Part shown: positions 12,418 to 58,745 of the stretch, piece after piece
How the letters are laid out: the number at the start of each line of letters is the position of its first letter
Numbering within the stretch: the first letter of the stretch is position 1
NCBI RefSeq assembly: GCF_000331535.1
Contig: NZ_AMZN01000028.1
Location: 1 to 64,000, forward strand
Length of the DNA stretch: 64,000 nucleotides
Direction of reading: 5' to 3'
Origin: Fulvivirga imtechensis AK7
GTDB taxonomy: Bacteria > Bacteroidota > Bacteroidia > Cytophagales > Cyclobacteriaceae
Notes under the pieces: generated by a model
Told to the model about the DNA's origin: nothing
Databases searched by the model: none
The model's input: the letters and a program-made list of their open reading frames with translations, nothing else
Position numbers and translations under genes: made by a program

Positions 12418-12996
12418 ATGCCTAATACTAAAAGAACCACATCCCAACCGGATGTTGGCAATGATTTATCAGAGCCTGACCCAAAAACCAACTGGTATAT
12501 CTTTTACACTGCACCAAGAGCTGAAAAGGTTGTTCAGAAGGACCTGTTAATGCAGGGTTATGATGTCTTTTTACCTATAACAAAAACACTAAGGGTCTGG
12601 AACAACCGTCAGAGAAAGGTGATAGATCAGGTACTCTTTCCGAGCTACATCTTTGTCAATACCGAAGAAAGTCAATTGCATAAAATATGTCAGACACGCA
12701 AAGTGGCAACGTTTATACACTGTGGAGGTAAGCCCTCAAAGGTTAATCGAAAGTGTATTGAGGGTATTAAAAGGATGCTGGATCTAAATCAAGAAGTATC
12801 AGTGGAGCCCAATTTTAGTAAAGGAGAAAAGGTGCAGATCATAAGCGGACCGCTGGCAGGTTATGAAGGCGTACTTTTGGAACAACAATCTAAAACTAAA
12901 TTTGGTATCCGCCTCAAGGAAATTAATCAGACGGTCTTCATTGATATTTGTAAGAACCAGATCAGGAAGAAGCACAAATTTGGACATGCGGCATAA
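12418..12996 (+). CDS. Specialised NusG paralogue (UpxY/LoaP-like transcription antiterminator)
   Basis: This 192-residue protein has an NGN domain at about 25-118 (NWYIFYTAPRAEKVVQKDL; VLFPSYIFVN) and a KOW motif at about 130-160 (FSKGEKVQIISGPLAGYEG). Family proteins bind RNA polymerase behind a specific leader and suppress termination along long operons: UpxY for Bacteroides capsule operons, LoaP for polyketide operons in Firmicutes. It lies 382 bases upstream of a PKS locus of more than 50 kb on the same strand. Its likely job is to keep transcription going through that locus (inference). It is shorter and more diverged than a housekeeping NusG and sits outside the usual secE-rplK context. 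Its own leader is duplicated upstream. Confidence 0.88.
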   Translation: MPNTKRTTSQPDVGNDLSEPDPKTNWYIFYTAPRAEKVVQKDLLMQGYDVFLPITKTLRVWNNRQRKVIDQVLFPSYIFVNTEESQLHKICQTRKVATFIHCGGKPSKVNRKCIEGIKRMLDLNQEVSVEPNFSKGEKVQIISGPLAGYEGVLLEQQSKTKFGIRLKEINQTVFIDICKNQIRKKHKFGHAA

Positions 12997-13378: not shown

Positions 13379-16300
13379 ATGACGGATAAAGAAGTATTAC
13401 TAGAATCAACAGATTGTTATCTAAAATCCCTTATAGCTGAGGTTGCAGAAATATCAATTACAGATAATGATATATCAACTCCATTTCAGGAACTGGGCAT
13501 TGACTCGTTTCGGGTCCTGCAAATCATCAGGAAACTGGAAGAAGAATTTGGCACTTTGCCAAAGACCCTGCTTTTTGAAAACTTCAATATCGGAGACTTA
13601 AGCCATTATTTTGTTGATAAACATCAGCAAGCTCTGGCTAAGAAATTTGCCACAGGAAAGCTATCCGAAGGGACGGTAGTTGAAGCTTCCCGAAAACCTG
13701 AAAAACAGCATGATGCGGCACAGGAAACTGTTGTGAAGAAGCCCCAAAATACCCTTCTGAATATGCCTATTCGGATTTTGGAAAAAGAAGCCGATAAGCA
13801 CCCTGAATTGCAGAAACTGGTGAAAAGGCTTTTCGATCAACATAAAAATGAGGGTTCTTCGTCACGAGGAACAAGAAATATTGCTCCCAATCTTTTTATC
13901 GGTAGCGAAAGACGCGGTTATTTTAATTATAGCCGCTGTAAAAACATTATATTGGTTTATACCTATACTGGCCCTAAAGATTACCTTCCTGTCCTCTCTG
14001 AGGAGATATACCAATATTGTAAAGCCAATAATTTCGAATTGAACCTCTTCTCTTCCGAAGAGATAGGATCAATAGGGAGCGCTCCTTTTTCGGCTACTCC
14101 GTTTGGTGTATTATCAAGGGTAGCTATTAGTGATTTCACCCTGCAGGGTAGTAAGATGCGCAGGTTGCGCTACCAAGTATCGAAGTTTGAAGGGGCTGGT
14201 AAATGCCGGACCGAAGAATATCAAGCCGGGTCGGATAAAAAAACCGACAAGGAGATTGCTGATATCATAGACCAGTGGTGTGCACCGAGGACGATGGTAA
14301 ACCCTCTTATCTATATTGTAAAAGATGAGATACTGACAGGTACTTTAAGCGCAGAACACCGACTCTTCCTGACCTACATGGACGATGTTCTCCAAAATGT
14401 CATTCTTATTTCAAAACTATCATCAGAAGAGAATGGCTATTTAATGGACCTGGAGTTTTACCCTCAGGATATGCCATTGGGTGGCCTGGAGTTTGCAATT
14501 GTGAAAATAATCGAAGTTTTGGCAGCGGAAGGGTGTACCATGCTCAGTTTGGGGGGTACTTATGGTTGCAAGCTGGCTCCTTCATCTAATGCAGATCCCG
14601 AATTAGACAAAACATTAGACTACTTGCGGGAGCAAAACATCTTCAATGACGAAGGAAATCTGCAGTTCAAAAATAAATTCAGACCGGAACATAATACTGT
14701 TTTTCTATGCAGACCTGTTGGAAGCAGCCCCGACAATGTAACCGATATTATCATGATGATCGCTGACCCTGCTAAAATGCAGACGTCTGACGAAGAAAAT
14801 CATACCTCTTTCATGTCACTGTCAGATCAACCGGAGATTGAGAGACAAAGCCTGTCGGATGCGGCTGGAGAGATAAACTTGGATGATCAATTGGCGCAAG
14901 AGGAAAAACAACAGGTCGTGATCGAAGGGAATGAACGATCCGTTATGCTGTCGGACTTCGGCTACAACCCCCTGAATATTCCAAATAGCAACATTGAATT
15001 CGATTTAAAAACCGATTCATGGGCTCAATTGGAATTACCAGCCATTCAAAGTCAGTTAAGCTATCTTTACACCCAACTTCAACAACCGGTAAACTTAGAA
15101 GAGAGTCTGAAAAGCGTTTTTCCCTTTTCATATTTTGCGCTGACCACCGCAGGCCGTACCGCGGAACACGCATTCTGTAAGTCGTGGTCCAATAAAGGCA
15201 TTGTACTTCAGAACCTGCTTTTCCCAACCACCATTTTTCATCAGATCGAAAATGATTTTACACCCAGGGAACTGCCCCATCCTGAAGTGTTTAAACTGGA
15301 CTCAGAGGAATTATACAAAGGAAATTTGAATTGGGAGGCGCTCAGGAAACAGGTAGAGAGCGATCCTAAATCAATTGCTTTTGTTTTGATAGAGGTAGAT
15401 GACAATGCGGCCGGTGGAGCTCCGGTATCTATGCAGCATCTCAGGCAAGTAAAAGCATTGCTCTCCCAACATGCTATACCGCTCGTTTTTGACGCAACCA
15501 GAATAGTTGAAAATGCACAGTTCATTATTGAGCATGAAAAGGAATTTGACGGGAAAAATATATGGGAAGTAGTAAGAGAAATAAGCACTCATGCAGATGC
15601 AGTCATTGCAAGTCTGGCCAAAGATTTTTGTGTAAACAAAGGTGGGCTGATAGCTACCAATGATGAAGAACTCTTTAATAAGATCCAGAACCTCATTCAG
15701 GAGGAGGGAATAGGACTCGATGTAATCGATAAAAAGGTTATTGCTTTATCGCTCCAGGACCTTAATAAGATCGAGAGCCGGGTACTGCGCAGGATGGAGT
15801 CTGTGCGTATGATATCGAGTACTTTAAAGAACAGCAACATTCCGGTAGTGCAGCCTGCCCGGGGGCACTGCATACTAATAGACGTTAAACAAATACCTGA
15901 ATTTCACCAGTTTGGGTACCCTGTAGCTTCTTTTCTGGCATGGATGTATCAAAGCACTGGTATCCGTGCAGGAGCACACAATGCCGGAATGCAGAAAGAT
16001 ACTTCTATCAATAACCTGGTGCGCCTGGCCATTCCTGTTGGTTTAAAGCATAACGAGGCAGAAGAAATAGCGAAAAGGTTGGTAAATGCCTTTGCGAAGA
16101 AGCATAATATTCCCGAACTCATACCGGAGAGTCATCCATCGGGATCATTAGGAGATATTCATGCTAAATTCACATTAAAAAAATATCATCATGTTACCGG
16201 AAAGGTTGTTACGAAACCCTCCAGCGCCACAGATAGCACCGGTACGGAAAATCCTTCAGTTTCTAATTCAGACATTTCGAAGCAAGCAGGGCAGCAGGAG

Positions 16301-19300
16301 AGTGTAACAGGTAGCAACAGTCCCCGCCAATCCGGTGACATCGCCATTGTTGGAATGGCAGGCCGTTATCCCAAGGCAAAAAACATGAATGAGTTCTGGG
16401 ATAACCTTGTCCAGGGAAAAGATTGCATTGAAACCATACCGGAGGTCCGTTTTAAGCAGCGGCTCCACAACAAATTTTCTGAAAGGTACCGGGGAGGCTT
16501 CATTGATGACATTGACAAATTCGATTCACTTTTTTTTAATATCTCACCCAGAGAAGCTGAATATCTTGATCCTCAGGAAAGGCTTTTTCTTGAAGTAGCC
16601 TGGGAAGCCATTGAGGATGCAGGCTACTACCCTGAAACACTGGCGGAAGAAAATACACCACGCGATATCGGTGTTTTTGTAGGAGCTGTATGGACATTGT
16701 ACCAGATGCTTGGGGTAGAGGAAAAATTTAAAGGAAATAATCTGAACCCCAGTTCTCACTTATGGGGTATTGCCAACCGGGTGTCCTATGCGTTTAACCT
16801 GTCCGGACCAAGCTTGTCGGTAGACACCGCCTGCTCTTCAAGCCTGACTGCATTATACTTGGCTTGCGAAGCCATTTATAAAGGAGAATGCTCCGGTGCC
16901 ATTGTAGGAGGGGTGAACCTCGATATTCACCAAAGTAAAATCGACATTAATACTGGCGGGGGGGCACTTTCCGAAGATGGCGTGTGCCGTACTTTTGGAA
17001 AAGGCGCCAATGGATATGTGGCCGGTGAGGGCGTAGGTGCGCTGTTTCTCAAACCTCTAGATAAAGCAGTAGAAGACGGTGACAACATCTATGGTGTAAT
17101 CAAAGGTATCGCCATTAACCATGGTGGAAAAACCAGTGGCTTCATGGTGCCCAGCCCGAAAGCACAGGCAAAGGTGGTAACCACTGCTCTTGAAAATGCG
17201 AAGGTGGATGCCCGGAGTATTGGTTATGTCGAGGCGCACGGAACAGGTACCGAGCTGGGCGACCCGATTGAGATTTCCGGCCTTACTACTGCCTTTGAGA
17301 AGTATGAAGTTGACAAACAGGGTTGTTCTATTGGCTCTGTAAAAACGAACATTGGGCATCTTGAGGCTGCAGCAGGAATTGTGGGTATCCACAAAGTGCT
17401 TCTACAGATGAAATACAGAAAGCTGGTTCCTTCACTGCATTCTTCCGAATTAAATCCTTTCATCGACTTTAAAAACTCTCCTTTCTATGTGGAACAGGTC
17501 ACAGAAGAATGGAAACCAAAGGTCATAGATGGGGTTCAGCTTCCGCTTCGCGCTGGTGTTAGCTCTTTTGGAGCGGGTGGGGCCAATGCACATGTAATTA
17601 TTGAGGCGTACAACTCTCCGGCCTTACAGCGAAAAAGTTCGCCCACTGAGCCTAAGAATCAGATCTATCCTCTTTCCGCCCGAAATGACGATCAGCTCAG
17701 AGAAACTGCGGTTCGCTTGCGTGACTTCCTGCTAAAAGACCTGGCCGCTGATGCGCCACTCCATACCGGCGATGTAGCACATACCCTCCGGGTTGGAAGA
17801 AAATCCTTTGAGCACCGCCTCGTAATTATTGCCAAAACAAAAGAAGAACTGATTGAAAAACTTACCCGGTTTATTGACGGTAAAAAAGACGATACGGTTC
17901 TTACTGGCCAGGTAAAAAATAGCGAAGGTATTACCCGGTTGCTCAATCGCAAAGAGAAAGAAGAATTTATAAAACTGCTCTCTCAGAGCGGTGACCTTCG
18001 TAAGCTGGCTACACTTTGGACCGATGGTATTCTGCCCGACTGGCAAGGTATTGAGGCATTGGAAACAGGAATGAAGGTTCACTTACCAACCTATCCATTT
18101 GCAGATAAACGTCACTGGATTGCCGATACATCGAAAACGCCAAACCTTACGATGCACTCCAATACAGGGATACATCCATTGATAGATTCCAATGAATCTA
18201 CCTTCGAGCGCCAGATCTTTAAGAAAATTTTTCATGACAAGGATTTTGTCATTTATGATCACCTGGTATCGGAAATACCTACTTTACCGGGGGTTGCCTA
18301 TCTGGATTTTGCCCGGAAAGCCGGTGAAATTGCTGCTGGCAGGAAAGTACAGAGAATAAAGAACATCCTTTGGCTAAGCCCGCTCACAGTTAATGATTCC
18401 AAACCAACTGAGGCTTTTATCGAACTTAAGCCAAATGGTAGTCTGGTGCAGTTTGAGATATTCAGTGAAAACGAAAACGGACAGAAACAGCTCCATTCTC
18501 AGGGCAAGCTCTCTTACGCCACCGCTCAGGAACTGGATGCCGAGCCTGAATTCATTGAACTGGAGAGCATCCGGGGCAGGTGTGAGAAGGCCATGGATGG
18601 AAAAGATGCATACCCTCACTTTAAAGCTTTGGGGCTGGATTTAGGCCCCAGCTTCCAGGTACTTCAGGAGGTATTTCAAAACGAGCAGGAAATTCTGGGA
18701 ATACTCCAGATACCTGAAGTTCGTCAGGGTGATTTTAGTGATTTTGTGCTTCACCCTTCGTTGATCGATGGCACTGGTCAAACGGGCATGGCAGCGCAAC
18801 TTTCGGAAAATGATAAAGGGGGCACAGGAGAAATGTATGTCCCTTATTCATTCGGGGAAGTAGAGATCCTTCATCCATTGCAGGAGAAATGCTACGCCTA
18901 CGTGAAAAAAGCGAATGACCCGAATGCCAAAGTAACAAAAACAAATATTCTGGTTGTTGATGAAAATGGGAAGGTCCTTGTAAAGATCAAAGATTCCGTA
19001 GGAGTACCCCTTGTCAGTGTTCATGAGAAACCCGCTCAAGACGTACACTCAGATGAGTTTTCCAAGCTATACTATGCCCCCGTATGGGAAAAATCACCGT
19101 TGCAGGTCGAAGGCGATCAGAATTATGATCCTGTTGTGATTTTTGATACCAATGACAAGTTTTTCAAGCTGTATCAAACCGGTATCAAGGCAGCGGGAGA
19201 GGATGTAAATCGCGTTAAATTAGTAAAGCCGGGAGATAAATTCGAGGATCTGGGACAGCAAACATATACTGTTAATCCCCAAGAGCCGGGAGATTTTACA

Positions 19301-22300
19301 AGACTGTTCGAATCGCTGAATAAATCGGATTTTGCGGTAGAAAAGATCTGTTTTGCGTGGCCATTTGATCAGCGTATACAGGAATACAAGGAAGACACCC
19401 TTAAAGCGTCACTGGAAAAAGGTGTTTATGCTTTCTTATATCTGTGCCAGGCGCTTGTCGGACAAAAATATAAAAACGCTGTTGAGCTTCTTTATCTCTA
19501 TTCCTCAGACATTGAAGGACAGCCCCATCACGCTGCCATTAATGGCTTTGCCAAAACCCTCCATATTGAGCATTCGAAGCTCTCTTGCAAGCTCCTGGAG
19601 ATCGTGCAGAAAAAGCCTGCTTCGGATAAGGCTCTGGACTACATAATAGCAGAATTTACGCAAAGTGGTCAGCAGGAGATGACCGTTCGCTACCAGGAAA
19701 ATGAGCGGCATATAAGAAAACTGAAGCAATACCAGTTTGAACAAACGGAAGATCCTGCCTCCGTTCAAAGTTTGGGACTGAAAGAAAAAGGTGTTTATAT
19801 CATTGCCGGCGGAGCCGGAGGACTGGGACTCATATTTGCTCAGTACCTGGCAAAGGAATATCAGGCAAGACTTGTGCTTACAGGAAGGTCAGCCCTTTCC
19901 GATGAACGAAATGCTGAGCTCGAAAAACTCCGAGAAGCAGGAGCCGAAGTACTTTATTTACAGGCTGATATCTCTAGGTTCGATGAGGCTGAACGTTTGG
20001 TAAACGAGACCAAATCTGCTTTTGGCCCTGTCAATGGTATCATCCACAGCGCAGGCGTCTTGAGAGATTCCTACATACGCAATAAAACACGGGAAGAAAT
20101 GGAAGCCGTGTTTGCTCCGAAGCTGTTGGGAACCGTCAACCTTGATACGGCCACCCAAAAAGAAGAACTGGATTTCTTCGTCCTGTTTTCCTCAATGGCA
20201 GCCGTTGGTGGAAACATGGGCCAAAGCGACTACTCGTTTGCCAACTCATTTATGGATGCTTTTGCTGCCCGCCGCGAACACTTTAAAACAAAGGGAAAAA
20301 GATCGGGTAAAACGCTGAGCATCAACTGGTCAATATGGGCTGACGGGGGCATGAAGCTCGATGAGCAAACAGAGATCTTCTTTAAAAAGAACCTGGGCAT
20401 CATCCCTTTGCAGGTAGATACAGGGCTGGAAGCCTTTACAAAAGGGCTCGGCATTACAGAACCTCAACTGGCAGTAGTAGAAGGCGATCAGGAAAAAATA
20501 GAGCTGGCCTGGGGCTTGAGAGAAGAAGAACCGAAAGTAGCAGCACAACCAGAAGACTCCGGGCAAAGTTCTCCCTCAGAGTCGGTGGCACCAGCGGCAG
20601 ACAAAGAGCTGGCCGAGATGGTTCAAGGTGAATTATCCCGGATCGTCATGGACTTTTTGAAGCTCGATGCCGAGGATGTTGCTGTGGATAAGATATTGAT
20701 GGACCTGGGATTTGATTCCATAGGCCTGGCCACATTTGCTAATTCGGTAAATGACACATATGGGCTTGATGATGTTACCCCGGTGCTGTTTTTCGAATAT
20801 CCGAGCATTGAGGAAGTGACGAAGTTTTTATGTGCTGAGCATAAAAATGAAGTACTTCGCTATCATCAGGGTAGTCAGGCTGCAGCATCTGATAATAGTG
20901 CTTCGGGGCAACAACACAAAACAGAGGATGCCCAGGAAGTTTCCTTTGCATTGAAGAAAGGGTGGGACCCGGTTGCATTGGACAACAGTCATCACCAGCC
21001 TGTCAATGGAAGCTTTTCAGCAGAAAGCCGTTTCAGAGACATGCCCATTGCCATTGTGGGTATGAGTGGCGTTATGCCACAGTCAGATGATCTGGATGAA
21101 TTCTGGGAAAAGCTGAGGGATGCGGAAAACAATATGGTCACCCTTATTCCGAAGGATCGCTGGAGTTGGGAAGAGTACTATGGTGATCCGCTGGATGGCG
21201 GAAACAAGACCAGAGCCAAGTGGGGTGGTTTTATGAGAGAGGTGGATAAGTTCGATCCGCTGTTCTGGGGTATCTCTCCTGTGGAAGCTGCAGCTATGGA
21301 TCCGCAGCAAAGGATCTTTTTGGAAACAGTCTGGCATGCCATTGAGGATTCAGGCCACAAGGTTTCCGAACTGTCAGGTACAAGAACAGGAGTCTTTGTT
21401 GGGGCTGCCACCAGAGATTATATAGATATTATGAGCCAAACGGATGCTGAGCTTTCAGGGTATTCAGGATCGGGCACATCGCATGCTGTTTTGGCCAACA
21501 GGGTTTCCTACCTGCTCAATTTACACGGGCCTAGCGCACCGCTTGATACGGCATGCTCCAGTTCCCTGGTAGCATTGCATCGGGCCATTGAATCTATTCA
21601 TACCGGAAGCTGCGAAATGGCTATTGTTGGTGGCGTCCAGGTGATGTTGACACCGGCAGCATTCATTTCGTTTGGCGCGGCAGGCATGCTGGCTGATGAT
21701 GGTAAGTGCAAAACTTTTGACGACAGGGCAGATGGCTATGTGAGAGGAGAAGGATCAGGTGCAATTGTCATTAAACCTTTGGCTAAAGCCGAAGCGGATG
21801 GCGACCATATTTACGCGGTCATCAAAGCTACTGCTGAGAATCACGGTGGTAAGGTTACTGTGCTAACGGCACCTAACCCCAACGCGCAGGCTGATCTGCT
21901 GATGGAGGCATATGAAAAAGCTGAAGTGGATCCAACCACGGTCGGCTTTATTGAATGCCATGGCACAGGTACGAAGCTGGGTGATCCCATTGAAATTCAG
22001 GCAATGAAAAAAGCATTTGCCGAATTATACAAGAAACACAACAAAGATGCTCCTGCTAAGCCTCACATAGGGTTGACATCTGTAAAAAGTAATATTGGCC
22101 ACCTGGAAACAGGAGCCGGCATTGCAGGCATACTAAAAGTTTTATTGTCCATCAGGCATAAGAAAATACCGGCATTGCTCCATTTTGAAAAACTCAATTC
22201 TTTCATAAAAATTGAGGGCACTCCATTCTATATGGTTGACAAGCTGAGGGATTGGGAGCCGATCAGGGATGAAAATGGATCGCCATTTCCGAGAAGGGCT

Positions 22301-25300
22301 GGTGTAAGTTCATTTGGTTTTGGAGGCGCCAACGTCCATGTAGTGCTGGAAGAATATATCCCGCCTCAGCATCAGGCTTTGGTGCAGTTTGATAGTCCGT
22401 ACATTATTGTGCTCTCCGCTAAAAAAGGCGATAGACTGAAAGAATATGTGCAAAGAATGCTCAGGTACCTGGAAAACAATGAGGTAGAGCTGGCTGATTT
22501 TGCCTATACACTGCAGGTGGGCCGGGATACAATGGCAGAAAGGCTCGCGATAGTGGTTTCCAATAAAGAGGAACTGAAACAAAAATTCAATGATTTTCTG
22601 GAGGACAATGAAAACATAGAAAATCTATTCCATTATAACATTCAAACCAAAAAAGGTGCTACCCAACCTGCGGTTGACGGCAATGAGGACCTGTCGGCAC
22701 TGATCAGGGAAAAGCAGTTTGAAAAGCTGGCCGGACTATGGGTCTCCGGTATGGAGATCGACTGGAGCCTGCTTTACAAACAGGGGGTTCCGAAACGGCT
22801 AAGTCTGCCCGGTTATCCATTTGCCAGGGAACGCTACTGGTTCTCCGTCAAAGAAAAAGAGAATACTCCGGCAGTTTCAGGACATACAAATTATCTCCAT
22901 CCGTTGGTTCAGACCAACGTGTCTACATTCAGGGAACAGAAGTTCGCATCGCTGTTTACGGGAGAGGAGTTCTTCTTCGCAGACCACATGGTGGGTACAC
23001 AAAAGATCTTACCGGGTGTTGCTTATATGGAGATGGCCAGAGTGGCTGGAGAACTGTCCGGAGGAGCAAGAGTCCGATTTATTCGCAATCTGGTTTGGGT
23101 AAAGCCATTGATTGTTGACGATAACGCAAAACAGGCGGAGGTTTCGCTAATGCCCAACCGGGATGAATTTGATTTTACTGTAAAGACCCTCGGTAGTGAA
23201 GGACATATTACCCACTGCTATGGGAAACTGGCTTATAATGGTACAATTACAGAGCCCCCTGTCCTGGACGTAGCCGCGATCCGTTCGCGTTGTACAAAGG
23301 AGATATTCACGGGAGATGCACTATATGAGTTTTTGCGCCAAACAGGGTTGAATCTTGGAGCGGGATTCCAGATCGTGCAAAATATGTATGCCAATGAAAA
23401 TGAATCTCTGGCCGTAGTGCAACTACCTGCGCACTTACGAGAGACGGCAGACCAGTTTTGGTTACACCCTGCTTTGATGGATGGCTCAATTCACTCTGGA
23501 GCCGGATTATTGCAGATGAGCCCCGTTGAGGTGCCTTTTTCTCTTCCTTTTTCTGTTGGAGAAGTACAGGTCATTGATACATTAAAAGATCTCCAATACG
23601 GATATGCTACCTGGGCTGAGGATAATGACCTCAATAACCCTACTAATCTTAAAACGAACTTTTGCCTACTGGATAAGAACGGTAAAGTTCTGGTGCGGAT
23701 AAAAGATTTTATCTCGAAACCATTGTTCAAGGATGCAGCCAAACAAAATGGCACCCCTAAACCACAGCTTGCGCCGGCATCGGCCGGCAATGTGGGGCTA
23801 CATGCTCTGGAGCCGGTCTGGAAGGAGTTGCCTCAAACCAGACACAATGGCGTAATAGTGGCTGAATCGGCAAGAATACTACTGTTAGGCGGCAATCAGG
23901 AGCAGTTGGATTGGTTGAAAAAGTCGTTTGATCATGCTAACTTGATAGAAATACCAGCAGGTTCAGGCACAGATGCTATTGAAGCTGCGTTACGCGATCA
24001 AGCATTTGATCAACTGGTATGGATGGCGCCCGATGTTGCCGAAAAGGCCAGCGTAGACAGCCATGAAATAATAGCCGGACAGGAAAAGGGTGTAATAACT
24101 GTTTTCCGCACTGTCAAAGTGCTGCAGAAGCTGGGCTATGCAGACAAAGCCTTGCAATGGACGTTGATCACCGGCAACACACAACATGTAAAAGAAGATG
24201 ACCGGGTTCTGGCTGCTCATGCCGGAGTCTTCGGAATGGCCGGTAGTCTGGCGAAGGAATTCCCCGGGTGGAACCTGAGGCTGCTGGATGTAGATTCGCT
24301 GGGATCAGTGACAGCCACAGAATGCCTGTCTCAAGACTGGGATAGGCAGGGAGATGGCCTGGCTCACCGCCAGGGCAAGTGGTTCAGTCCGGGGCTCACG
24401 CGTATGGATGCCCTACAGCCATCATCCCCGATCTACAAACAAAAAGGCGTTTATGTGGTGATTGGCGGTGCCGGAGGCCTTGGTGAAGTGTGGAGCCGGT
24501 TCATGATAGAGCAATATCAGGCGAGAATAGTATGGATAGGCCGCAGAAAGGCTGATGATACGATCACAGAAAAAATTAAGCTGTTGAGCGGAATGGGCGA
24601 GGCGCCAGTATATATTTCAGCGGACGCCACAAAAGCCGCTGAGCTGGAGCGAGCCCGTAAAGAAATACTGAAGAGATATCCGGTCATTAACGGTGTAGTA
24701 CATTCTGCGCTCGTTCTGAAAGATCAGAGCCTTCTAAACATGGATGAAGCTGCATTCAAAGCCGGATTATCAGCCAAGGTGGATATCAGTGTGAGTATGG
24801 ATGCCGCATTTGGAGCGCTGGACCTGGATTTTATACTTTTCTTCTCCTCCATAGTCTCGTTTTTCAAAACTCCGGGCCAGTCGAATTATGCAGCGGGTTG
24901 TGCTTTCAAAGACAGCTTTGCGCACAGCCTTGGGCAGCAGCGTAAATACCCGGTAAAGGTCATGAACTGGGGCTATTGGGGCAGTGTAGGCGTAGCGACT
25001 GATGAGCTTACCAGGCAACGGATAGCGCAGATGGGCATTGGCTCCATAGAACCGGAAGAAGGCATGTCAGCGCTTCAGAATTTTGTTGACTCCGGTATTC
25101 GTCAGCAGGTGCTGATAAAGGTGCTCAACAATCAGATACTGCAGGCTATCACCCTACCGGAGGAAGGTGCTCAACCCATAGAGACTGCGCCTGTGGCCGT
25201 ACCGAATGCACAGAAAATGATGACCAAATACGATGAGCCTGTAAGATCAGGGTCAAATGGTCACATTGCAACCAACGGAAAACAAACTGACAGCATATTG

Positions 25301-34300: not shown

Positions 34301-35203
34301 ACAAATGGTAATGGACAATCGCAGACATCAGTCGAAGCGAGGTCCGTTTGGAACAGCATTGCGAATCAGAAAACCCCGGCAATGTCAGACAATATACTGG
34401 TTCCGATGCAAACCCGGGGTGACAAGCCACCGATCTTTGCTATACCAGGGGCAGGAGGAAATGTGCTGTGTTTTCAGCCGTTGAGTCAATCCTTGGGTAA
34501 AGAACAGCCATTTTATGGCCTGCAGGCAGTTGGACTGGACGGACAATCCCAGCCACTTGACACTGTTAAAAAAATTGCGAAAGCTAATGTTACTGCCCTG
34601 AAGAAGGTGCAGTCATCGGGACCTTATGTGCTTTTAGGGTACTCCAATGGTGGTGTCATTGCATTTGAGATGGCTAAAATGCTGCATAGGCAGAAAGAAA
34701 AAGTAGCGTCACTGATATTGCTTGATAGCGTTTGCCCGACAATTCAAAATGAAGACGAAGCTGATCAGATAGCTTTCTTGTACAAAAACCTGGCACATGC
34801 CACAGGGGTTGATGTATCAGGCATTGATATTGAAAAGCTGCGGCAGATTGCAGGGGACGATCGTGTTGAGTACTTGTACAACCATACGAAAAAATTTGGC
34901 TTTGAAATGACAAAAGACCAGTTCGCCTTGATGTATTCGGTAGCCATGACAAATGCAAATGCATGCAGGGTGTATAAACCAACCAAGCTACCGGGAAAGG
35001 TTAAAGTGACATTGTTCAGAGCTACAGACGCCTATGATGATAAGCCAAAAGATTACGGCTGGAATCAATGGTTGAACGACCCTCTCAAAATTTATGATGT
35101 TAAGTCAGGCCATTTTTCAATAGTGGACAATGGACCAATACAGGAAGTGGCTAAAAAGATAGTAAATGAAAGCGATTCTTTCGACAGGATACGGGTCTCC
35201 TGA
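13379..35203 (+). CDS. Giant trans-AT polyketide synthase with N-terminal PLP lyase and C-terminal thioesterase
   Basis: This is a 7274-residue multienzyme. Domains by residue: ACP1 20-85 (Ser 43), GNAT-like 165-468, PLP lyase 537-915 (Lys 748), KS1 985-1411 (Cys 1152), DH1 1597-1875, KR1 1895-2381, ACP2 (Ser 2447). Then KS2 2555-2998 (Cys 2726), DH2 3171-3450, KR2 3478-3925, ACP3 and ACP4 (Ser 4021, 4141). Then KS3 4251-4675 (Cys 4415), DH3 4855-5138, KR3 5160-5610, ACP5 and ACP6 (Ser 5694, 5836). Then KS4 5940-6365 (Cys 6096), DH4 6545-6825, ACP7 (Ser 6886), and TE 7005-7265 (GYSNGG, Ser 7089; His 7245). All four KS keep Cys, HGTGT and NIGH. No AT domain exists, so malonyl units must be loaded in trans. 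The TE makes it the likely last protein of the line. It starts with an ACP, so its first KS partner lies on another protein. ATG 13379 is preceded by GAGGAAC. It overlaps the next gene by 38 bases. Confidence 0.95.
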   Translation: MTDKEVLLESTDCYLKSLIAEVAEISITDNDISTPFQELGIDSFRVLQIIRKLEEEFGTLPKTLLFENFNIGDLSHYFVDKHQQALAKKFATGKLSEGTVVEASRKPEKQHDAAQETVVKKPQNTLLNMPIRILEKEADKHPELQKLVKRLFDQHKNEGSSSRGTRNIAPNLFIGSERRGYFNYSRCKNIILVYTYTGPKDYLPVLSEEIYQYCKANNFELNLFSSEEIGSIGSAPFSATPFGVLSRVAISDFTLQGSKMRRLRYQVSKFEGAGKCRTEEYQAGSDKKTDKEIADIIDQWCAPRTMVNPLIYIVKDEILTGTLSAEHRLFLTYMDDVLQNVILISKLSSEENGYLMDLEFYPQDMPLGGLEFAIVKIIEVLAAEGCTMLSLGGTYGCKLAPSSNADPELDKTLDYLREQNIFNDEGNLQFKNKFRPEHNTVFLCRPVGSSPDNVTDIIMMIADPAKMQTSDEENHTSFMSLSDQPEIERQSLSDAAGEINLDDQLAQEEKQQVVIEGNERSVMLSDFGYNPLNIPNSNIEFDLKTDSWAQLELPAIQSQLSYLYTQLQQPVNLEESLKSVFPFSYFALTTAGRTAEHAFCKSWSNKGIVLQNLLFPTTIFHQIENDFTPRELPHPEVFKLDSEELYKGNLNWEALRKQVESDPKSIAFVLIEVDDNAAGGAPVSMQHLRQVKALLSQHAIPLVFDATRIVENAQFIIEHEKEFDGKNIWEVVREISTHADAVIASLAKDFCVNKGGLIATNDEELFNKIQNLIQEEGIGLDVIDKKVIALSLQDLNKIESRVLRRMESVRMISSTLKNSNIPVVQPARGHCILIDVKQIPEFHQFGYPVASFLAWMYQSTGIRAGAHNAGMQKDTSINNLVRLAIPVGLKHNEAEEIAKRLVNAFAKKHNIPELIPESHPSGSLGDIHAKFTLKKYHHVTGKVVTKPSSATDSTGTENPSVSNSDISKQAGQQESVTGSNSPRQSGDIAIVGMAGRYPKAKNMNEFWDNLVQGKDCIETIPEVRFKQRLHNKFSERYRGGFIDDIDKFDSLFFNISPREAEYLDPQERLFLEVAWEAIEDAGYYPETLAEENTPRDIGVFVGAVWTLYQMLGVEEKFKGNNLNPSSHLWGIANRVSYAFNLSGPSLSVDTACSSSLTALYLACEAIYKGECSGAIVGGVNLDIHQSKIDINTGGGALSEDGVCRTFGKGANGYVAGEGVGALFLKPLDKAVEDGDNIYGVIKGIAINHGGKTSGFMVPSPKAQAKVVTTALENAKVDARSIGYVEAHGTGTELGDPIEISGLTTAFEKYEVDKQGCSIGSVKTNIGHLEAAAGIVGIHKVLLQMKYRKLVPSLHSSELNPFIDFKNSPFYVEQVTEEWKPKVIDGVQLPLRAGVSSFGAGGANAHVIIEAYNSPALQRKSSPTEPKNQIYPLSARNDDQLRETAVRLRDFLLKDLAADAPLHTGDVAHTLRVGRKSFEHRLVIIAKTKEELIEKLTRFIDGKKDDTVLTGQVKNSEGITRLLNRKEKEEFIKLLSQSGDLRKLATLWTDGILPDWQGIEALETGMKVHLPTYPFADKRHWIADTSKTPNLTMHSNTGIHPLIDSNESTFERQIFKKIFHDKDFVIYDHLVSEIPTLPGVAYLDFARKAGEIAAGRKVQRIKNILWLSPLTVNDSKPTEAFIELKPNGSLVQFEIFSENENGQKQLHSQGKLSYATAQELDAEPEFIELESIRGRCEKAMDGKDAYPHFKALGLDLGPSFQVLQEVFQNEQEILGILQIPEVRQGDFSDFVLHPSLIDGTGQTGMAAQLSENDKGGTGEMYVPYSFGEVEILHPLQEKCYAYVKKANDPNAKVTKTNILVVDENGKVLVKIKDSVGVPLVSVHEKPAQDVHSDEFSKLYYAPVWEKSPLQVEGDQNYDPVVIFDTNDKFFKLYQTGIKAAGEDVNRVKLVKPGDKFEDLGQQTYTVNPQEPGDFTRLFESLNKSDFAVEKICFAWPFDQRIQEYKEDTLKASLEKGVYAFLYLCQALVGQKYKNAVELLYLYSSDIEGQPHHAAINGFAKTLHIEHSKLSCKLLEIVQKKPASDKALDYIIAEFTQSGQQEMTVRYQENERHIRKLKQYQFEQTEDPASVQSLGLKEKGVYIIAGGAGGLGLIFAQYLAKEYQARLVLTGRSALSDERNAELEKLREAGAEVLYLQADISRFDEAERLVNETKSAFGPVNGIIHSAGVLRDSYIRNKTREEMEAVFAPKLLGTVNLDTATQKEELDFFVLFSSMAAVGGNMGQSDYSFANSFMDAFAARREHFKTKGKRSGKTLSINWSIWADGGMKLDEQTEIFFKKNLGIIPLQVDTGLEAFTKGLGITEPQLAVVEGDQEKIELAWGLREEEPKVAAQPEDSGQSSPSESVAPAADKELAEMVQGELSRIVMDFLKLDAEDVAVDKILMDLGFDSIGLATFANSVNDTYGLDDVTPVLFFEYPSIEEVTKFLCAEHKNEVLRYHQGSQAAASDNSASGQQHKTEDAQEVSFALKKGWDPVALDNSHHQPVNGSFSAESRFRDMPIAIVGMSGVMPQSDDLDEFWEKLRDAENNMVTLIPKDRWSWEEYYGDPLDGGNKTRAKWGGFMREVDKFDPLFWGISPVEAAAMDPQQRIFLETVWHAIEDSGHKVSELSGTRTGVFVGAATRDYIDIMSQTDAELSGYSGSGTSHAVLANRVSYLLNLHGPSAPLDTACSSSLVALHRAIESIHTGSCEMAIVGGVQVMLTPAAFISFGAAGMLADDGKCKTFDDRADGYVRGEGSGAIVIKPLAKAEADGDHIYAVIKATAENHGGKVTVLTAPNPNAQADLLMEAYEKAEVDPTTVGFIECHGTGTKLGDPIEIQAMKKAFAELYKKHNKDAPAKPHIGLTSVKSNIGHLETGAGIAGILKVLLSIRHKKIPALLHFEKLNSFIKIEGTPFYMVDKLRDWEPIRDENGSPFPRRAGVSSFGFGGANVHVVLEEYIPPQHQALVQFDSPYIIVLSAKKGDRLKEYVQRMLRYLENNEVELADFAYTLQVGRDTMAERLAIVVSNKEELKQKFNDFLEDNENIENLFHYNIQTKKGATQPAVDGNEDLSALIREKQFEKLAGLWVSGMEIDWSLLYKQGVPKRLSLPGYPFARERYWFSVKEKENTPAVSGHTNYLHPLVQTNVSTFREQKFASLFTGEEFFFADHMVGTQKILPGVAYMEMARVAGELSGGARVRFIRNLVWVKPLIVDDNAKQAEVSLMPNRDEFDFTVKTLGSEGHITHCYGKLAYNGTITEPPVLDVAAIRSRCTKEIFTGDALYEFLRQTGLNLGAGFQIVQNMYANENESLAVVQLPAHLRETADQFWLHPALMDGSIHSGAGLLQMSPVEVPFSLPFSVGEVQVIDTLKDLQYGYATWAEDNDLNNPTNLKTNFCLLDKNGKVLVRIKDFISKPLFKDAAKQNGTPKPQLAPASAGNVGLHALEPVWKELPQTRHNGVIVAESARILLLGGNQEQLDWLKKSFDHANLIEIPAGSGTDAIEAALRDQAFDQLVWMAPDVAEKASVDSHEIIAGQEKGVITVFRTVKVLQKLGYADKALQWTLITGNTQHVKEDDRVLAAHAGVFGMAGSLAKEFPGWNLRLLDVDSLGSVTATECLSQDWDRQGDGLAHRQGKWFSPGLTRMDALQPSSPIYKQKGVYVVIGGAGGLGEVWSRFMIEQYQARIVWIGRRKADDTITEKIKLLSGMGEAPVYISADATKAAELERARKEILKRYPVINGVVHSALVLKDQSLLNMDEAAFKAGLSAKVDISVSMDAAFGALDLDFILFFSSIVSFFKTPGQSNYAAGCAFKDSFAHSLGQQRKYPVKVMNWGYWGSVGVATDELTRQRIAQMGIGSIEPEEGMSALQNFVDSGIRQQVLIKVLNNQILQAITLPEEGAQPIETAPVAVPNAQKMMTKYDEPVRSGSNGHIATNGKQTDSILQRSHDVSEQMISDYVQQTITETLADGLKIEAGAINADTSYADYGVDSIVGVNLIRTINKAFGIELETISLFEHGSVNKLTQFVVSHWSERIAAQLQPTSNVAYTPEVATNQSTVDYRTDYHSSAEVSEQLVSDYVQQIITETLADGLKIDAGAINTDTSYADYGVDSIVGVNLIRTINKAFGIELETISLFEHGSVDKLTQYIASNWLEKVAALLQQTNGTSQASDTVYSDQKVNIPVASEHRFANLSTALHDGNTGNIPGSHHYSEGSSKPFKIDQDQIAIIGMSGRISESESVEEFWQYLKAGKDMVREVTRWKPSECVMPGTQKEGYCTRGGFLKSAELFDPGFFKISPLEAQYMDPQQRLFMEESFKALEDAGYAGKSIDGKQCGVYVGCGETGYSGLFQDNPPAQAFWGNAMSIIPARIAYYLNLQGPAVAIDTACSSSLVAIHMACQSLWSQETDMALAGGVFVMPAPGYYQNSNRAGMLSPEGKTYAFDSRANGFVPGEGVGVVVLKRLQKALEDGDNIHGVIIGSGINQDGSTNGITAPSALSQERLELSIYERFNINPESIQLVEAHGTGTPLGDPIEYRALSNAFRKYSDKNQFCAIGSVKTNIGHAATAAGVAGVFKQLLSFRNKQLPPSINFKEGNPAINFESSPFYVNTELRDWNTEDGRKRRSAISSFGFSGTNAHMVLEEAPSLQPVVIESPAYLVVLSAQTQEQLKQQAENLLSYCKNTPDVSLNNLSYTLFVGRVHLRDRLACVVRNYQELVQYLEKWLETGTVSQVYTSEINEGKVREQVSLKNFANQCIHECRNGISPVRYVEHLSTIADLYIKGYSLDFESLFVKGSKRISLPTYPFARERYWVEPLSSAQLKPGRGASTYIHPLLHANTSDLAQQSYTSWFSGEEFFLSDHVVNGQKVLPGVAYIEMARAAVMNATPGLVESNSLELNNVIWLQPVTVTEEKEVVIELAPNDDGKINFEIYSQHNEREVIHCRGNAEYSDEILPARIDIDQLYSEMQNSSVDMDSVYADFVRVGINHGPSYRGVTSLYRGEKQLLAQLALPSIVENTQDDYVLHPAVMDSALQASMGLIMDENSREPKIPFALEYVRIISPCTKEMFAWIRYAQGSNPGDTVAKIDIDLCDLHGNICVQMYGFSARVLKGGPGLAAESEELVGETSGAADLHSLEPVWNELPQARRNGVIVAESARILLLGGNQEQLDWLKKSYDHAELLEIPAGSDTDAIEAALRDQTFDQLVWMAPDVAEKARVDSDEIIAGQEKGVLTVFRTVKALQKLGYADKALQWTLITGNTQHVKEGDRVLAAHAGVFGMAGSLAKEFPGWNLRLLDVDSLGSVTAKECLSLDWDKQGDGLAHRQGKWFAPGLSRMDVLQPSSPIYKQKGVYVVIGGAGGLGEVWSRFMIEQYQARIVWIGRRKADDTIKEKIEQLSGVSEAPVYISADATKAADLGRARKEILKKYPVINGVVHSALVLKDQSLLNMEESAFKAGLSAKVDISVSMDAVFGELDLDFMLFFSSIVSFFKTPGQSNYAAGCAFKDSFAHSLGQQRKYPVKIMNWGYWGSVGVATDELTRQRVAQMGIGSIEPEEGMSALQAFVDSDIHQVVLIKLLNEQVLKAITLPERDTHSSVNNAATLQEEKAISSQDSNSNIVPAQEQRRSETASEGAGTSLHDKGIIFFQNIIAEMLRMKPQQVDPQKLLSDYGLDSIMVGQLTERLRKVFPNVSGTLFFEVQNVHELVDYFMTNEKENLVAVTSGLPSNNGAATNGSVSKITEEPAYYEMKSASPALEKMTSKYPQKTAGSGNETPLDHGSLKERSISYFRNLIAEMLRMKPQQVEPQKPLSEYGLDSIMVGQLTDRLRKAFPDISGTLFFEVQSVDELADYFIENRKDDLVAVTGFATPAAPQQPDNASERKSDVAIMQQRPMLNFRAMNRGRHQFTPQQTPSSVAGPSVFDVAIVGLSGRYPKSESLAELWKNLSNGVNCIEEIPDDRWNWAEYYDPEKGKPGKMYTKWGGFIRDIDKFDPAFFKISPQEAETIDPQERVFVEACYHAIEDAGYKPENLDKDHKVGVFAGVLNSRYTVQPNFFSFANRVSYLFNFQGPSMAVDTACSSSLTAIHLALESLYGGLSTVAIAGGVNLIIDPDHFLRFADMGMLSSDGENKSFGDGGDGFVDAEGVGAVVLKPLTKAEQDGDHIYGIIKGSALNAGGKTNGYNTPNPRAQANVVSVALERSNIKAEQLSYIETHGTGTAFGDSIEIAGLSRAFKETNGKQFCAIGSVKSNIGHSESAAGIAALSKVLLQMKYKQLVPSINADVVNPEIDFSKTPFKLQRSLEKWHPTRNINGVSQEIPRIAGVSAFGAGGANAHLIIQEYKPSHAGESTQQNTRVIIPLSAKSVEQLKRKAQDLLSFIREAEANDLQGISMTSMAYTLQTGREALEERLGFVVDSIDQLAEKLEAYINDTPDIEGLYQGNINQGTEGLSFISQDDDLKETIIGKWVAENKLSKLLELWIKGLDLDWSMLYDQVKPKRMSLPGYPFARERYWLEINGKTGIAKATTSATIHPLLHSNTSDLSQLCYSSTFTGKEFFFDHKVNGRNVLPAAVYLEMARAAVEKSLPAVQGENVVELHQVVWAQPVVAAQHRQVSIALLVNDYGRIDFEVFTGEGGQKVINCQGQAAISHQSTVAKVDISGLQKQMQKNDLVSGRIYNDLSKRGINYGPAYQGIATVYQGEGQLLVGMSFPDNSDHNPKDYRLHPALTDSALQAVIALYTGEKNVKIQPSLPNSLESLAVLSPLTNEMFAWLRYSDSHTDDKPKIDIDLVDNEGNVRAQIRGVSYNVDNDIALGEQAEWVFSTNGVDGKHTDSGNPEKKIELFLKQEIALQLQLPVQKVASDDSFFELGLDSISITRIIDRANQLVDGNLVPSIVFEYINIHQLAGFIANSFQEKVEHIVVTRQKQQAENGQLPKLAPLPRKKLFDGPSNGNGAVSKSAGTNGNGQSQTSVEARSVWNSIANQKTPAMSDNILVPMQTRGDKPPIFAIPGAGGNVLCFQPLSQSLGKEQPFYGLQAVGLDGQSQPLDTVKKIAKANVTALKKVQSSGPYVLLGYSNGGVIAFEMAKMLHRQKEKVASLILLDSVCPTIQNEDEADQIAFLYKNLAHATGVDVSGIDIEKLRQIAGDDRVEYLYNHTKKFGFEMTKDQFALMYSVAMTNANACRVYKPTKLPGKVKVTLFRATDAYDDKPKDYGWNQWLNDPLKIYDVKSGHFSIVDNGPIQEVAKKIVNESDSFDRIRVS
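13877..16135 (+). other. GNAT-like plus tyrosine-phenol-lyase-like didomain inside the PKS
   Basis: Residues about 165-468 show a FemAB/DUF2156-like GNAT-fold pattern: GGLEFAIVKIIEVLAAEG, then FKNKFRPE. Residues about 537-915 match the beta-eliminating lyase family (tyrosine phenol-lyase, tryptophanase). The matches are AGRTAEH (Arg 593, cofactor phosphate), FDATRIVENAQFI (Asp 705 to the pyridine nitrogen), SLAKDFCVNKGG (Lys 748, Schiff base) and GIRAG (Arg 863, substrate carboxylate). The cofactor residues are intact, so the domain should be active. Order ACP-DUF-PLP lyase parallels the ACP-DUF-SH block of leinamycin-type synthases, where SH releases sulfur from a cysteine adduct. Shared function is inference. 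It is not an AMT-type aminotransferase. Confidence 0.75.
23798..25162 (+). repeat. Duplicated KR block, copy A
   Basis: This 1.36-kb stretch encodes the structural and catalytic halves of KR2. It is nearly identical at nucleotide level to 28844-30208 (offset 5046), with long unbroken matches and few silent changes. Both copies keep GGAGGLGEVW and the Tyr of SNYAAGCAF, but have Cys where the usual Asn of the KR tetrad stands. Confidence 0.85.
25317..25926 (+). repeat. Tandem ACP pair 1
   Basis: Two ACPs 120 residues apart are almost the same in sequence (GVDSIVGVNLIRTINKAFG in both; Ser 4021 and 4141). They arose by duplication. The residue six after the phosphopantetheine Ser is Leu, not Trp, so they lack the beta-branching flag. 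Confidence 0.85.
28844..30208 (+). repeat. Duplicated KR block, copy B
   Basis: This is the second copy of the KR segment of 23798-25162, here serving the next module (KR3). The flanking DH and ACP sequences of the two modules are much less alike, so the exchange was limited to the KR region. Confidence 0.85.
30341..31020 (+). repeat. Tandem ACP pair 2
   Basis: These two ACPs (Ser 5694 and 5836) share IAEMLRMKPQQV and GLDSIMVGQLT. They are closer to each other than to pair 1, so the duplication was separate. Confidence 0.85.
34390..35200 (+). other. C-terminal type I thioesterase domain
   Basis: The alpha/beta hydrolase fold begins PPIFAIPGAGGNVLCFQPLS. The nucleophile elbow GYSNGG has Ser 7089, the acid is probably in LLDSVCP, and His 7245 is in SGHFSIVD. 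It releases the chain by hydrolysis or cyclisation. The only thioesterase seen in the locus is on the protein encoded first. Confidence 0.88.
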
Positions 35204-37474: not shown

Positions 37475-37531
37475 CATTACTACGCTTATTAATTCAATTA
37501 AAACATATTCAAAAACAAATTCTTTAACGAT

Positions 37532-38404: not shown

Positions 38405-39052
38405 ATGACCTTGGCCAAAGAACATCAAACCGGTGTGATACTGCTTTGCATAATGTTGTTCAACACATGTTTAACAGTAGCGCAGTCAAGAAAGTGGGAA
38501 AGCGCCACGTCTAAAGACGGTAAAATTGCAACAAAATATAGCATATCAACCAGGTCAGATGAAAATGGCAATGATGTAGCATTAATTGAAAGTGTTACCA
38601 CAGCTACCGAAAAAATAAACATGGATAGGTGTATTGAATTGATGAAAGATGTATCGAAACATAAATTCTTCCATTCGGATGATTCGAGTACAGTAGTTAA
38701 AACCATTTCAGAAAACGAATGGATCATTTACTATTATACTGAAGGTACTTTTTTCACCCCCGATGCTGACGGAGTTTACACTTTGACTTTTACAGAAGAT
38801 AAATCGAATAAAACAGCAGATTTCACCATACAAGCAGTACCAACATTGCTTGAAAGGACAGAGGCAAAGCGTTTTACATATCTGAATAAGGGTTACTCAT
38901 TTGAAGATATGAAAGATGGTACAGTTCGGATCACGATGACCACCAGGCTGTCACCAGCCTTCAGGGTTCCTGGTTGGATAATGAATATGGCTTTTCCTCA
39001 TACTTTTTTTGATGTAATGCAGAAGTTTATAAACCTCGCGCACAATGAATAA
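38405..39052 (+). CDS. Secreted START-like protein
   Basis: This 215-residue protein has an N-terminal signal peptide (about 1-25, ending CLTVAQS). A fold similar to its upstream neighbour follows: the KWESATSKDGKIATKYSIST opening, ENEWIIYYYTEGTFF, and a C-terminal SPAFRVPGWIMNMAFPHTFF helix region. It is shorter and lacks the membrane anchor. Its stop overlaps the start of the NRPS gene by eight bases. The pair probably arose by duplication and divergence; the ligand is unknown. Confidence 0.7.
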   Translation: MTLAKEHQTGVILLCIMLFNTCLTVAQSRKWESATSKDGKIATKYSISTRSDENGNDVALIESVTTATEKINMDRCIELMKDVSKHKFFHSDDSSTVVKTISENEWIIYYYTEGTFFTPDADGVYTLTFTEDKSNKTADFTIQAVPTLLERTEAKRFTYLNKGYSFEDMKDGTVRITMTTRLSPAFRVPGWIMNMAFPHTFFDVMQKFINLAHNE

Positions 39053-58498: not shown

Positions 58499-58745
58499 CG
58501 GCTAATGGTCAACTAGTCGTGAGTAGTTAGTAGTTAGTCAATCACATCGGTCAAACAGTCGGCAGTGAACTTGAAAACGGTTCATGTCAAGTATTAATAC
58601 CTCAAATCCAAATTCTAGAAAAGGGAAAAAGATGAAAAGAAGGTTAAAACAAATATATCAGGATTTGTTTAAGGGAAAGCTTACACAAAAGGAAGCTTTA
58701 CAAGAGATCAGGGCCTTGAAACAGCAGGGCCAGGAAAAAGGTATG
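58351..58745 (+). other. Docking pair at a split DH/KR module
   Basis: The upstream protein ends in a short two-helix-like tail (YYETLMEKILNNEISIDEAV) after an NGNGNGNG linker. The downstream protein opens with a similar helical pattern (LKQIYQDLFKGKLTQKEAL). Both have the G/N-x-(I/L)-(S/T)-x-x-E-A turn typical of four-helix-bundle docking domains in trans-AT synthases. They join DH3 to the next protein's KR. The 133 bases between the genes hold only AT-rich sequence with a GTTAGTAGTTAGT repeat. Confidence 0.6.

Follow-up and report, generated by a model that had tools for sequence, protein, structure and literature searches.

The window analysed here, 64,000 nucleotides of Fulvivirga imtechensis AK7 (positions 1 to 64,000 of contig NZ_AMZN01000028.1, our contig C28, which has 99,452 bases in a genome of 6.7 Mb), contains a single open reading frame (ORF; 13379-35203, plus strand) that encodes a polyketide synthase (PKS) protein of 7274 residues. 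At its N-terminus an acyl carrier protein (ACP) is followed by a DUF2156-like domain (DUF) and a pyridoxal 5'-phosphate (PLP)-dependent beta-eliminating lyase domain (SH), which very probably form a DUF-SH sulfur-incorporation module inside a trans-acyltransferase (trans-AT) PKS/nonribosomal peptide synthetase (NRPS) assembly line of a marine Fulvivirga species. The DUF-SH didomain as such, the domain pair by which the anticancer compound leinamycin acquires sulfur, is already known and widespread. As far as sequence can establish it, the didomain is present, it is kin to actinobacterial DUF-SH, its PLP site is intact, and the unpaired ends of the proteins fit a split module. In the proposed course of events, the growing chain would be passed onto the N-terminal ACP of the protein encoded at 13379, with the acceptor presented at the beta carbon. 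The DUF would then attach L-thiocysteine or L-cysteine through its sulfur, and SH would form an external aldimine with the cysteine moiety and catalyze a beta-elimination that releases pyruvate and ammonia. An -SSH group (more likely, by analogy with GnmT, LnmJ and WsmR) or an -SH group would be left on the chain, which would proceed to a ketosynthase (KS) specialised for the SH product, and four KS modules would act before release by the thioesterase (TE).

The DUF-SH didomain

With DH and KR denoting dehydratase and ketoreductase, the whole protein reads ACP-DUF-SH-KS-DH-KR-ACP-KS-DH-KR-ACP-ACP-KS-DH-KR-ACP-ACP-KS-DH-ACP-TE according to the domain map. All three Pfam matches at its start (PP-binding, residues 14-77, 46 bits; LPG_synthase_C/DUF2156, 197-444, 64.6 bits; Beta_elim_lyase, 571-868, 95.8 bits) exceed the curated cut-offs, which confirms the first, sequence-only reading of an ACP, a GNAT/DUF2156-like domain and a beta-eliminating lyase at the start of the gene. 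The ACP, with the motif GIDSF (13418..13609, plus strand, as are all features in the window given here), adjoins DUF-SH within a type I PKS module. The DUF comprises residues of about 166-455 (13874..14743), and SH residues 515-914 (14921..16120); the KS directly after SH starts at residue 988 and ends at residue 1403 (16340..17587). This order of predicted domains is far beyond chance, and chance or misassembly is ruled out by its repetition in independent genomes.

The best solved relative of SH by sequence is 9cen, entitled the thiocysteine lyase domain of guangnanmycin biosynthesis (GnmT-SH), with 193 bits and an identity of about 31-32%, compared with 168 bits for tyrosine phenol-lyase (TPL) and 122 bits for tryptophanase. 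The closest fold of the predicted SH structure is likewise that of 9cen (Z 48.9, root-mean-square deviation 2.1, 387 aligned residues), whereas the best TPL reaches a Z of 43.2; in the model of the didomain (predicted local distance difference test, pLDDT, 91; predicted template modelling score, pTM, 0.58) the relative placing of DUF and SH is not to be trusted. In a tree, a single branch with a support of 100/100 separates 70 SH domains, 9cen among them, from 28 free-standing lyases, 27 of which are Bacteroidota sequences found with the window as query. The window SH is one of 11 rows in a clade that otherwise consists of Fulvivirga, Aquimarina and two close Bacteroidota, and the SH domains of Kordia and Lysobacter lie in the same part of the SH tree. 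The initial description of the domain as tyrosine-phenol-lyase-like was right in calling a lyase, which is of the SH type and not a TPL. In NCBIfam the TPL equivalog TIGR02618 scores 171.5 bits, below its cut-off of 720.7, and the best model, the tryptophanase subfamily PRK13238.1, reaches 213.2 bits against a cut-off of 285.

The PLP-binding and catalytic residues are intact in the window SH (D705, R708, K748, N676, R882), and F615, P616, N676, D705, R708, K748, H867 and R882 are invariant in all 70 SH domains. A cofactor set of Arg593, Asp705, Lys748 and Arg863 had been proposed from the sequence. The first three align with TPL Arg100, Asp214 and Lys257; Arg863 is conserved (68 of 70 SH domains, 28 of 28 free-standing lyases), but it is Arg882 that we take to be the counterpart of the carboxylate-binding Arg404 of TPL, a residue that lies beyond the end of the aligned TPL sequence. 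Arg882 occurs in 70/70 SH domains and in 27 of the 28 free-standing rows, the remaining row having a gap. TPL and tryptophanase, which are free-standing tetramers, share their fold and PLP site with the window SH but form a separate clade, and residues of their substrate site are lost or changed in SH. None of the 70 SH domains has the residues after the TDS of TPL or the site of TPL Arg381, and all have a proline (Pro616 in the window) at the site of TPL Thr124, in place of the Thr or Asp that follows Phe123. The loss of Arg381 has already been noted for earlier members (PMC3870968). An origin of the lyase from a free-standing TPL is ruled out by the separate clade and by these residue losses.

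The DUF is homologous along its length to the actinobacterial DUF of DUF-SH. In tblastn, four plasmid records of Streptomyces/Kitasatospora align with 92-98% of the DUF-SH query, both DUF and SH included, at 38-40% identity; the three annotated records show DUF-SH beside LnmK-family, HMGS (hydroxymethylglutaryl-CoA synthase) and ACP genes, which is the leinamycin-type layout, and the fourth has no annotation. Across phyla, 37 DUF columns are invariant in 44 sequences. The DUF and SH distances in 48 sequences correlate with an r of 0.90 (0/999 permutations as high), and DUF is better conserved than SH in 1115 of 1128 pairs. The SH clade and the full-length homology of the DUF bear out the earlier suggestion of a Bacteroidota counterpart of DUF-SH; neither the tree nor the DUF comparison refuted it.

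In a structure search with the DUF model (pLDDT 94.7), the first 11 rows were all MprF-type aminoacyl-phosphatidylglycerol synthases (Z 20.8-25.3), followed by 2hqy, a protein of unknown function (20.0), the aminoacyl-tRNA-dependent peptide synthases Sbb17 and Sba18 (17.6-17.8), FemX/FemA (15.0-15.9), ATE1 (13.3) and ordinary GNAT acetyltransferases (13.0 and below). The model has the predicted fold of the aminoacyl-tRNA-dependent transferases of the MprF/FemX superfamily; a shared fold by itself shows no function for the DUF. The likeness to the C-terminal domain of MprF (PF09924; Z 25.3) and to FemX (15.9) extends to some core residues (R264, E280, D357, K431, K433). However, identity to the MprF-type synthases is 15-21%, the window DUF has no membrane part and is fused to an ACP and SH, and of 33 invariant DUF positions 14 are identical in LpiA and 19 differ. 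Cysteinyl-tRNA synthetases can make cysteine persulfide. That the DUF might be an aminoacyl-tRNA-dependent enzyme which delivers cysteine or thiocysteine from cysteinyl-tRNA to the ACP-bound chain is an improbable extension of the fold prediction; if true, sulfur installation would draw on charged tRNA instead of free thiocysteine, and Aquimarina-type clusters would also draw on dedicated desulfurases. The DUF2156 identity of the domain is in print (PMC3870968), and its role is stated as an open question in PMC8479088.

The proposed split module and the ketosynthase after SH

The sequence-only reading placed the block at the start of a trans-AT PKS, which holds for the gene and not for the assembly line, where ACP-DUF-SH would stand mid-line. 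In the window cluster the unpaired domain ends fit the protein order 39045, 41657, 58584, 73144, 79383, 13379. The NRPS loading protein, with a partial condensation, an adenylation and a peptidyl carrier protein domain, and the trans-AT PKS proteins encoded with it at 39045..63998 are taken to act earlier in the line, and the C-terminal TE of the DUF-SH protein (34430..35128) is taken as its end. The last modular PKS protein, encoded outside the window (C28:79383-86684), ends in KS-DH without an ACP. The N-terminal ACP would complete this unpaired KS-DH, or the unpaired KS found at this place in one relative; KS-DH (C28:79383-86684) and ACP-DUF-SH (13379) fit one module split over two proteins.

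The same picture was obtained from the clusters in which ACP-DUF-SH lies at or near the N-terminus and is followed by KS (class A). Nineteen such stretches were mapped for domains, and in all 12 that reached the last modular PKS protein this protein ends in an unpaired KS-DH (11 clusters) or KS (Kordia algicida, in which the unpaired KS is preceded by two ORFs that overlap by 50 bases within a DH, perhaps a frameshift). Among the 12, the protein counted for Pseudoduganella flava and Massilia atriviolacea is the last modular PKS seen before non-PKS ORFs, and those of Aquimarina sp. Aq78 and A. muelleri are encoded on a different contig from DUF-SH. Of the other seven stretches, those of A. atlantica, Aliikangiella, Chitinophaga varians, a Bacteroidales metagenome-assembled genome (MAG) and Kordia zhangzhouensis ended before the last modular PKS protein, and those of Pseudomarimonas and Pseudoalteromonas showed no unpaired KS-DH on the downstream side, the side that was read; the 16-kb contig of G296 shows the DUF-SH protein only and was not counted, and G378 is unsplit. 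In homologues without the split, the order is KS-DH-KR-ACP-DUF-SH or KS-ACP-DUF-SH.

Against Aquimarina AU58, identity reaches 81% for the KS before the split and 87% for the KS after SH, whereas the preceding module, with 47% for its KS, and the DH behind the second KS, with 29%, have diverged; genome G309 gives the same picture. The comparison with Steroidobacter is less clear (earlier KS 75%, KS before the split 71%). The block from ACP-DUF-SH to the second KS, including the DH-KR-ACP-KS segment after the first KS (18173..22333), is common to the window, Aquimarina and the sibling Fulvivirga. By these sequence identities the two module halves have been kept together as a single block in these Bacteroidota, although the gene cluster has one of them at either end.

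The KS clades of trans-AT PKSs correspond to the substrates that the KS receive. All 30 tested KS directly after SH, from Bacteroidota to MAGs with an internal DUF-SH (class C), form one branch against 60 other KS (Shimodaira-Hasegawa-like approximate likelihood-ratio support, SH-aLRT, 99; one change, 0/500 shuffles as low) in a quick tree without bootstrap, built from a subset of the KS in hand. The window KS falls in a clade solely of KS that follow SH. Since trans-AT KS clades follow the substrate and the after-SH KS form one clade, these assembly lines probably have a beta-modification in common, and their after-SH KS would be specialised for the SH product.

Sulfur supply, acceptor and alternative readings

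Five of the 12 clusters, two from Fulvivirga and three from Aquimarina, have behind the last modular PKS gene the genes for a C_GCAxxG_C_C protein, a NifS-type cysteine desulfurase, an S-adenosylmethionine (SAM) methyltransferase and a SufS-like protein of 667 residues. In G309 these were identified by Pfam and NCBIfam, in the other clusters by phmmer searches with their G309 counterparts. Both desulfurases retain the PLP-lysine and cysteine motifs in all five clusters. The gene for the 667-residue protein occurs in 9 of 35 DUF-SH genomes tested (E 1e-100) and not in that of the window. These cassettes support a sulfur chemistry for the module type; for the window cluster the sulfur would have to come from primary metabolism, a source already proposed in the case of leinamycin (PMC8479088). 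In one genome the cassette lies at L125:9317-14091 (minus strand), with counterparts at L153, L169-L170 and L172, and the SufS-like protein has an N-terminal extension of about 230 residues.

The same module could instead use a cysteine donor and leave a plain thiol (-SH) on the chain, later to be cyclised or alkylated. This possibility, which we consider the less likely of the two outcomes, gains from the cleavage of cysteine adducts by LnmJ-SH as well (PMC8479088) and from the window cluster, in which the desulfurase and methyltransferase of the sibling cassette were not found. Arguing against it, thiocysteine lyase activity has been reported for three SH domains, which favour the thiocysteine adduct 50- to 106-fold (PMC8479088), and the window SH groups with one of these three, GnmT (9cen), apart from the free-standing lyases.

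Somewhat less probable still is a full leinamycin-like chemistry, in which HMGS-dependent beta-branching would occur first on the DUF-SH ACP and sulfur would be added to the branched acceptor. HMGS and enoyl-CoA hydratase (ECH) genes are present in the window cluster, and a branched acceptor is possible because 10 of the 12 clusters have HMGS; it was not found in those of Pseudoduganella flava and Massilia atriviolacea. Moreover, leinamycin-type modules read KS-ACP-DUF-SH, and the split module has no KR, like the ECH-bearing modules of the cluster. However, the KS-DH-ECH-ECH-ECH-ACP-ACP modules are likely clients of the HMGS cassette as well, and the unsplit non-leinamycin homologues have KS-DH-KR before ACP-DUF-SH, with the KS after one of them (G378) in the same clade as that of the window; the class C modules have both KR and DH. 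Three of the four ACPs that adjoin ECH domains in the window cluster carry a Trp flag and the DUF-SH ACP does not, a weak argument since the ACPs of the leinamycin family also lack Trp flags (PMC7618002). We lean towards an unbranched enoyl acceptor. In the window KS before the split TACSSS, HGTGT and NIGH are intact, and the DH retains His and Asp; Glu takes the place of Gly in its HxxxGxxxxP motif. These KS motifs and DH residues do not agree with a dehydrating bimodule, in which a non-elongating KS would precede the ACP. Among the other split-KS, NIGH was not found in those of Lysobacter, P. flava and Steroidobacter, and neither TACSSS nor NIGH in that of Massilia.

A loading module that makes a starter unit would be in keeping with the N-terminus of the first PKS gene and with GNAT-type domains that load starters in other trans-AT PKSs; it is very improbable, and in effect ruled out, since the same protein ends in a TE, the NRPS loading protein and the partnerless KS-DH end lie downstream, and unsplit homologues place DUF-SH inside the line. 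Equally remote is another chemistry of the lyase, such as the new C-C or C-N elimination on an ACP-bound chain that the sequence-only reading had entertained on account of the TPL fold and family: the domain bears the SH marks (missing Arg381 site, missing stretch after TDS, Pro616 for Thr/Asp) and is a member of the SH clade; such a reaction is not required, nor was any sign of it seen.

Several observations weigh against a sulfur-incorporating split module. The split module lacks a KR beside its DH, which makes the origin of the acceptor hard to explain. Details of the substrate may differ, since Arg593 is present in 63 of the 70 SH domains and the position of TPL Tyr71 varies. The protein order derives from unpaired domains and the TE rather than from docking data, and no unpaired KS-DH partner was found downstream in Pseudomarimonas and Pseudoalteromonas, of which the downstream side only was read. 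The sibling clusters, in which the DUF-SH protein ends in KS-DH, encode one more protein that begins with an ACP, a separate ACP-KS-ACP-TE, which would be the partner of that KS-DH end. Instead of substrate specificity, the KS clade could mirror a shared ancestry of the entire block. Finally, none of the four cassette genes was found in the window cluster, nor in 7 of the 12 clusters as far as they were read.

Known relatives, distribution and neighbouring genes

Among the closest known systems is the leinamycin family (LnmJ, GnmT, WsmR), which shares with the window the ACP-DUF-SH order, the PLP site and a trans-AT PKS/NRPS cluster with HMGS; both DUF and SH of the window are homologous over their full length to those of leinamycin-type clusters. 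The sequence comparison was with GnmT (9cen) and the leinamycin-type records. In the leinamycin-type lines, however, DUF-SH lies in the last module, after KS-ACP(-ACP) and before the TE, whereas in the window it stands mid-line, is split from KS-DH and is followed by four more KS modules. The terminal module KS-ACP-ACP-DUF-SH-TE of that family does not occur in the window protein, in which DUF-SH is N-terminal with one ACP and the TE comes four KS modules later. One ACP and no TE are also described for non-leinamycin DUF-SH modules in PMC7618002.

Also close are Kordia algicida A9ECY5 and Lysobacter F8TUA6, listed beside LnmJ as CP-DUF2156-PLP3-KS-KR-CP-KS in Table 2 of PMC3870968 (2013), and the non-leinamycin families of PMC8479088 (2021), which counts 109 DUF-SH clusters with three families outside leinamycin; their N-terminal architecture is the same as that of the window protein. 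The Kordia and Lysobacter proteins have about 3500 residues, whereas the window protein of 7274 residues runs to its own TE in a cluster with NRPS loading. The layout closest to that of the window was seen in Sporocytophaga. The DUF-SH trans-AT PKS of Aquimarina shares 74-76% DUF-SH identity and the block KS-DH | ACP-DUF-SH-KS with the window, but its cluster adds an aminotransferase, the separate ACP-KS-ACP-TE protein and the desulfurase cassette, none of which was seen in the window cluster. The cuniculene cluster has been placed in Aquimarina Aq78, Aq349, EL33, A. muelleri and strain RhTr2 (PMC9323603, PMC9860996). DUF-SH is present in all three of these strains that were examined, Aq78 (L056), A. 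muelleri (L058) and RhTr2 (L061); the DUF-SH cluster of AU58 contains all 15 of its PKS-type KS matches (E up to 1e-60), and the two contigs of Aq78 that match this cluster account for 12 of the 14 there. Because the named strains carry DUF-SH and most KS lie in its cluster, the Aquimarina DUF-SH cluster is probably the cuniculene cluster.

A search of 58 genomes, including the window's own, gave full-length DUF-SH in three genomes beyond that of the window, all of its genus, at 75-77% identity. In the phylum, the DUF-SH query matched 104 of 296 genomes, which is not a count of DUF-SH, as among the matches listed, which do not extend to the weakest genomes (E about 1e-5), all but that of the window lie on the lyase half (residue 319 of 766 onward). 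A near-identity search of the ACP-DUF-SH DNA against plasmids gave no match. A scan with patterns for two SH motifs yielded 69 DUF-SH loci (one genome per species), a lower bound, in Bacteroidota, Acidobacteriota, Pseudomonadota, Myxococcota, Fibrobacterota and Actinomycetota; seven partial or frame-broken ORFs of five loci were removed from the 69-row DUF-SH set. The view in the sequence-only reading that DUF-SH is actinobacterial is thus too narrow, with Kordia and Lysobacter in print since 2013 (PMC3870968). Class A layouts occur in Bacteroidota, Acidobacteriota and Pseudomonadota. In class B, the leinamycin type, DUF-SH is near the C-terminus with about 310-350 residues after it (Actinomycetota and Pseudoduganella buxea, L116), and in class C it is internal, as in KS-DH-KR-ACP-DUF-SH of L103 and L119. 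The domain labels come from hidden Markov models (HMMs) seeded on window domains, so that in distant GC-rich clusters some domains, degenerate DH, ACP or KR for instance, have probably been missed. The leinamycin-type C-terminal DUF-SH of the betaproteobacterium P. buxea suggests transfer between phyla. In Pseudoalteromonas luteoviolacea (L099, L147-L148) DUF-SH is deep-branching and the cluster ends in a four-module NRPS with a TE. The contig G378:C31 (L100/L189-L191), of a MAG titled Deltaproteobacteria that is Myxococcota by lineage, has an open frame of 17,277 residues with two DUF-SH and a long NRPS part.

With DUF-SH modules, nature has a known means of giving a polyketide an intact -SSH. 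From the window cluster and its relatives it seems that such a module operates mid-line, may be divided between two proteins and is accompanied by a KS of its own downstream, which would offer useful boundaries for engineering. The value of the comparison lies in its clues to the function of the DUF, the module boundaries and the sulfur supply, and because close relatives carry the desulfurase cassette, cultured marine strains, Aquimarina sp. Aq78 for example, suggest themselves for studies of the sulfur chemistry. In the open-access literature, the after-SH KS clade, the transferase fold of the DUF and the cluster desulfurases were not found in print.

Upstream of the PKS gene lies a gene for a NusG antiterminator of the UpxY/RfaH type (12418..12996, Pfam/NCBIfam), a homologue of which is directly 5' of the DUF-SH gene in many related clusters. 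The tandem ACPs of the second KS module (25367-25909) are nearly identical to each other, which suggests a recent duplication. After the PKS gene, at 36185-38317, a GMC-type oxidoreductase and a START-like protein are encoded, as in the DUF-SH clusters of Kordia and Sporocytophaga, and likely serve in tailoring or handling of the product.

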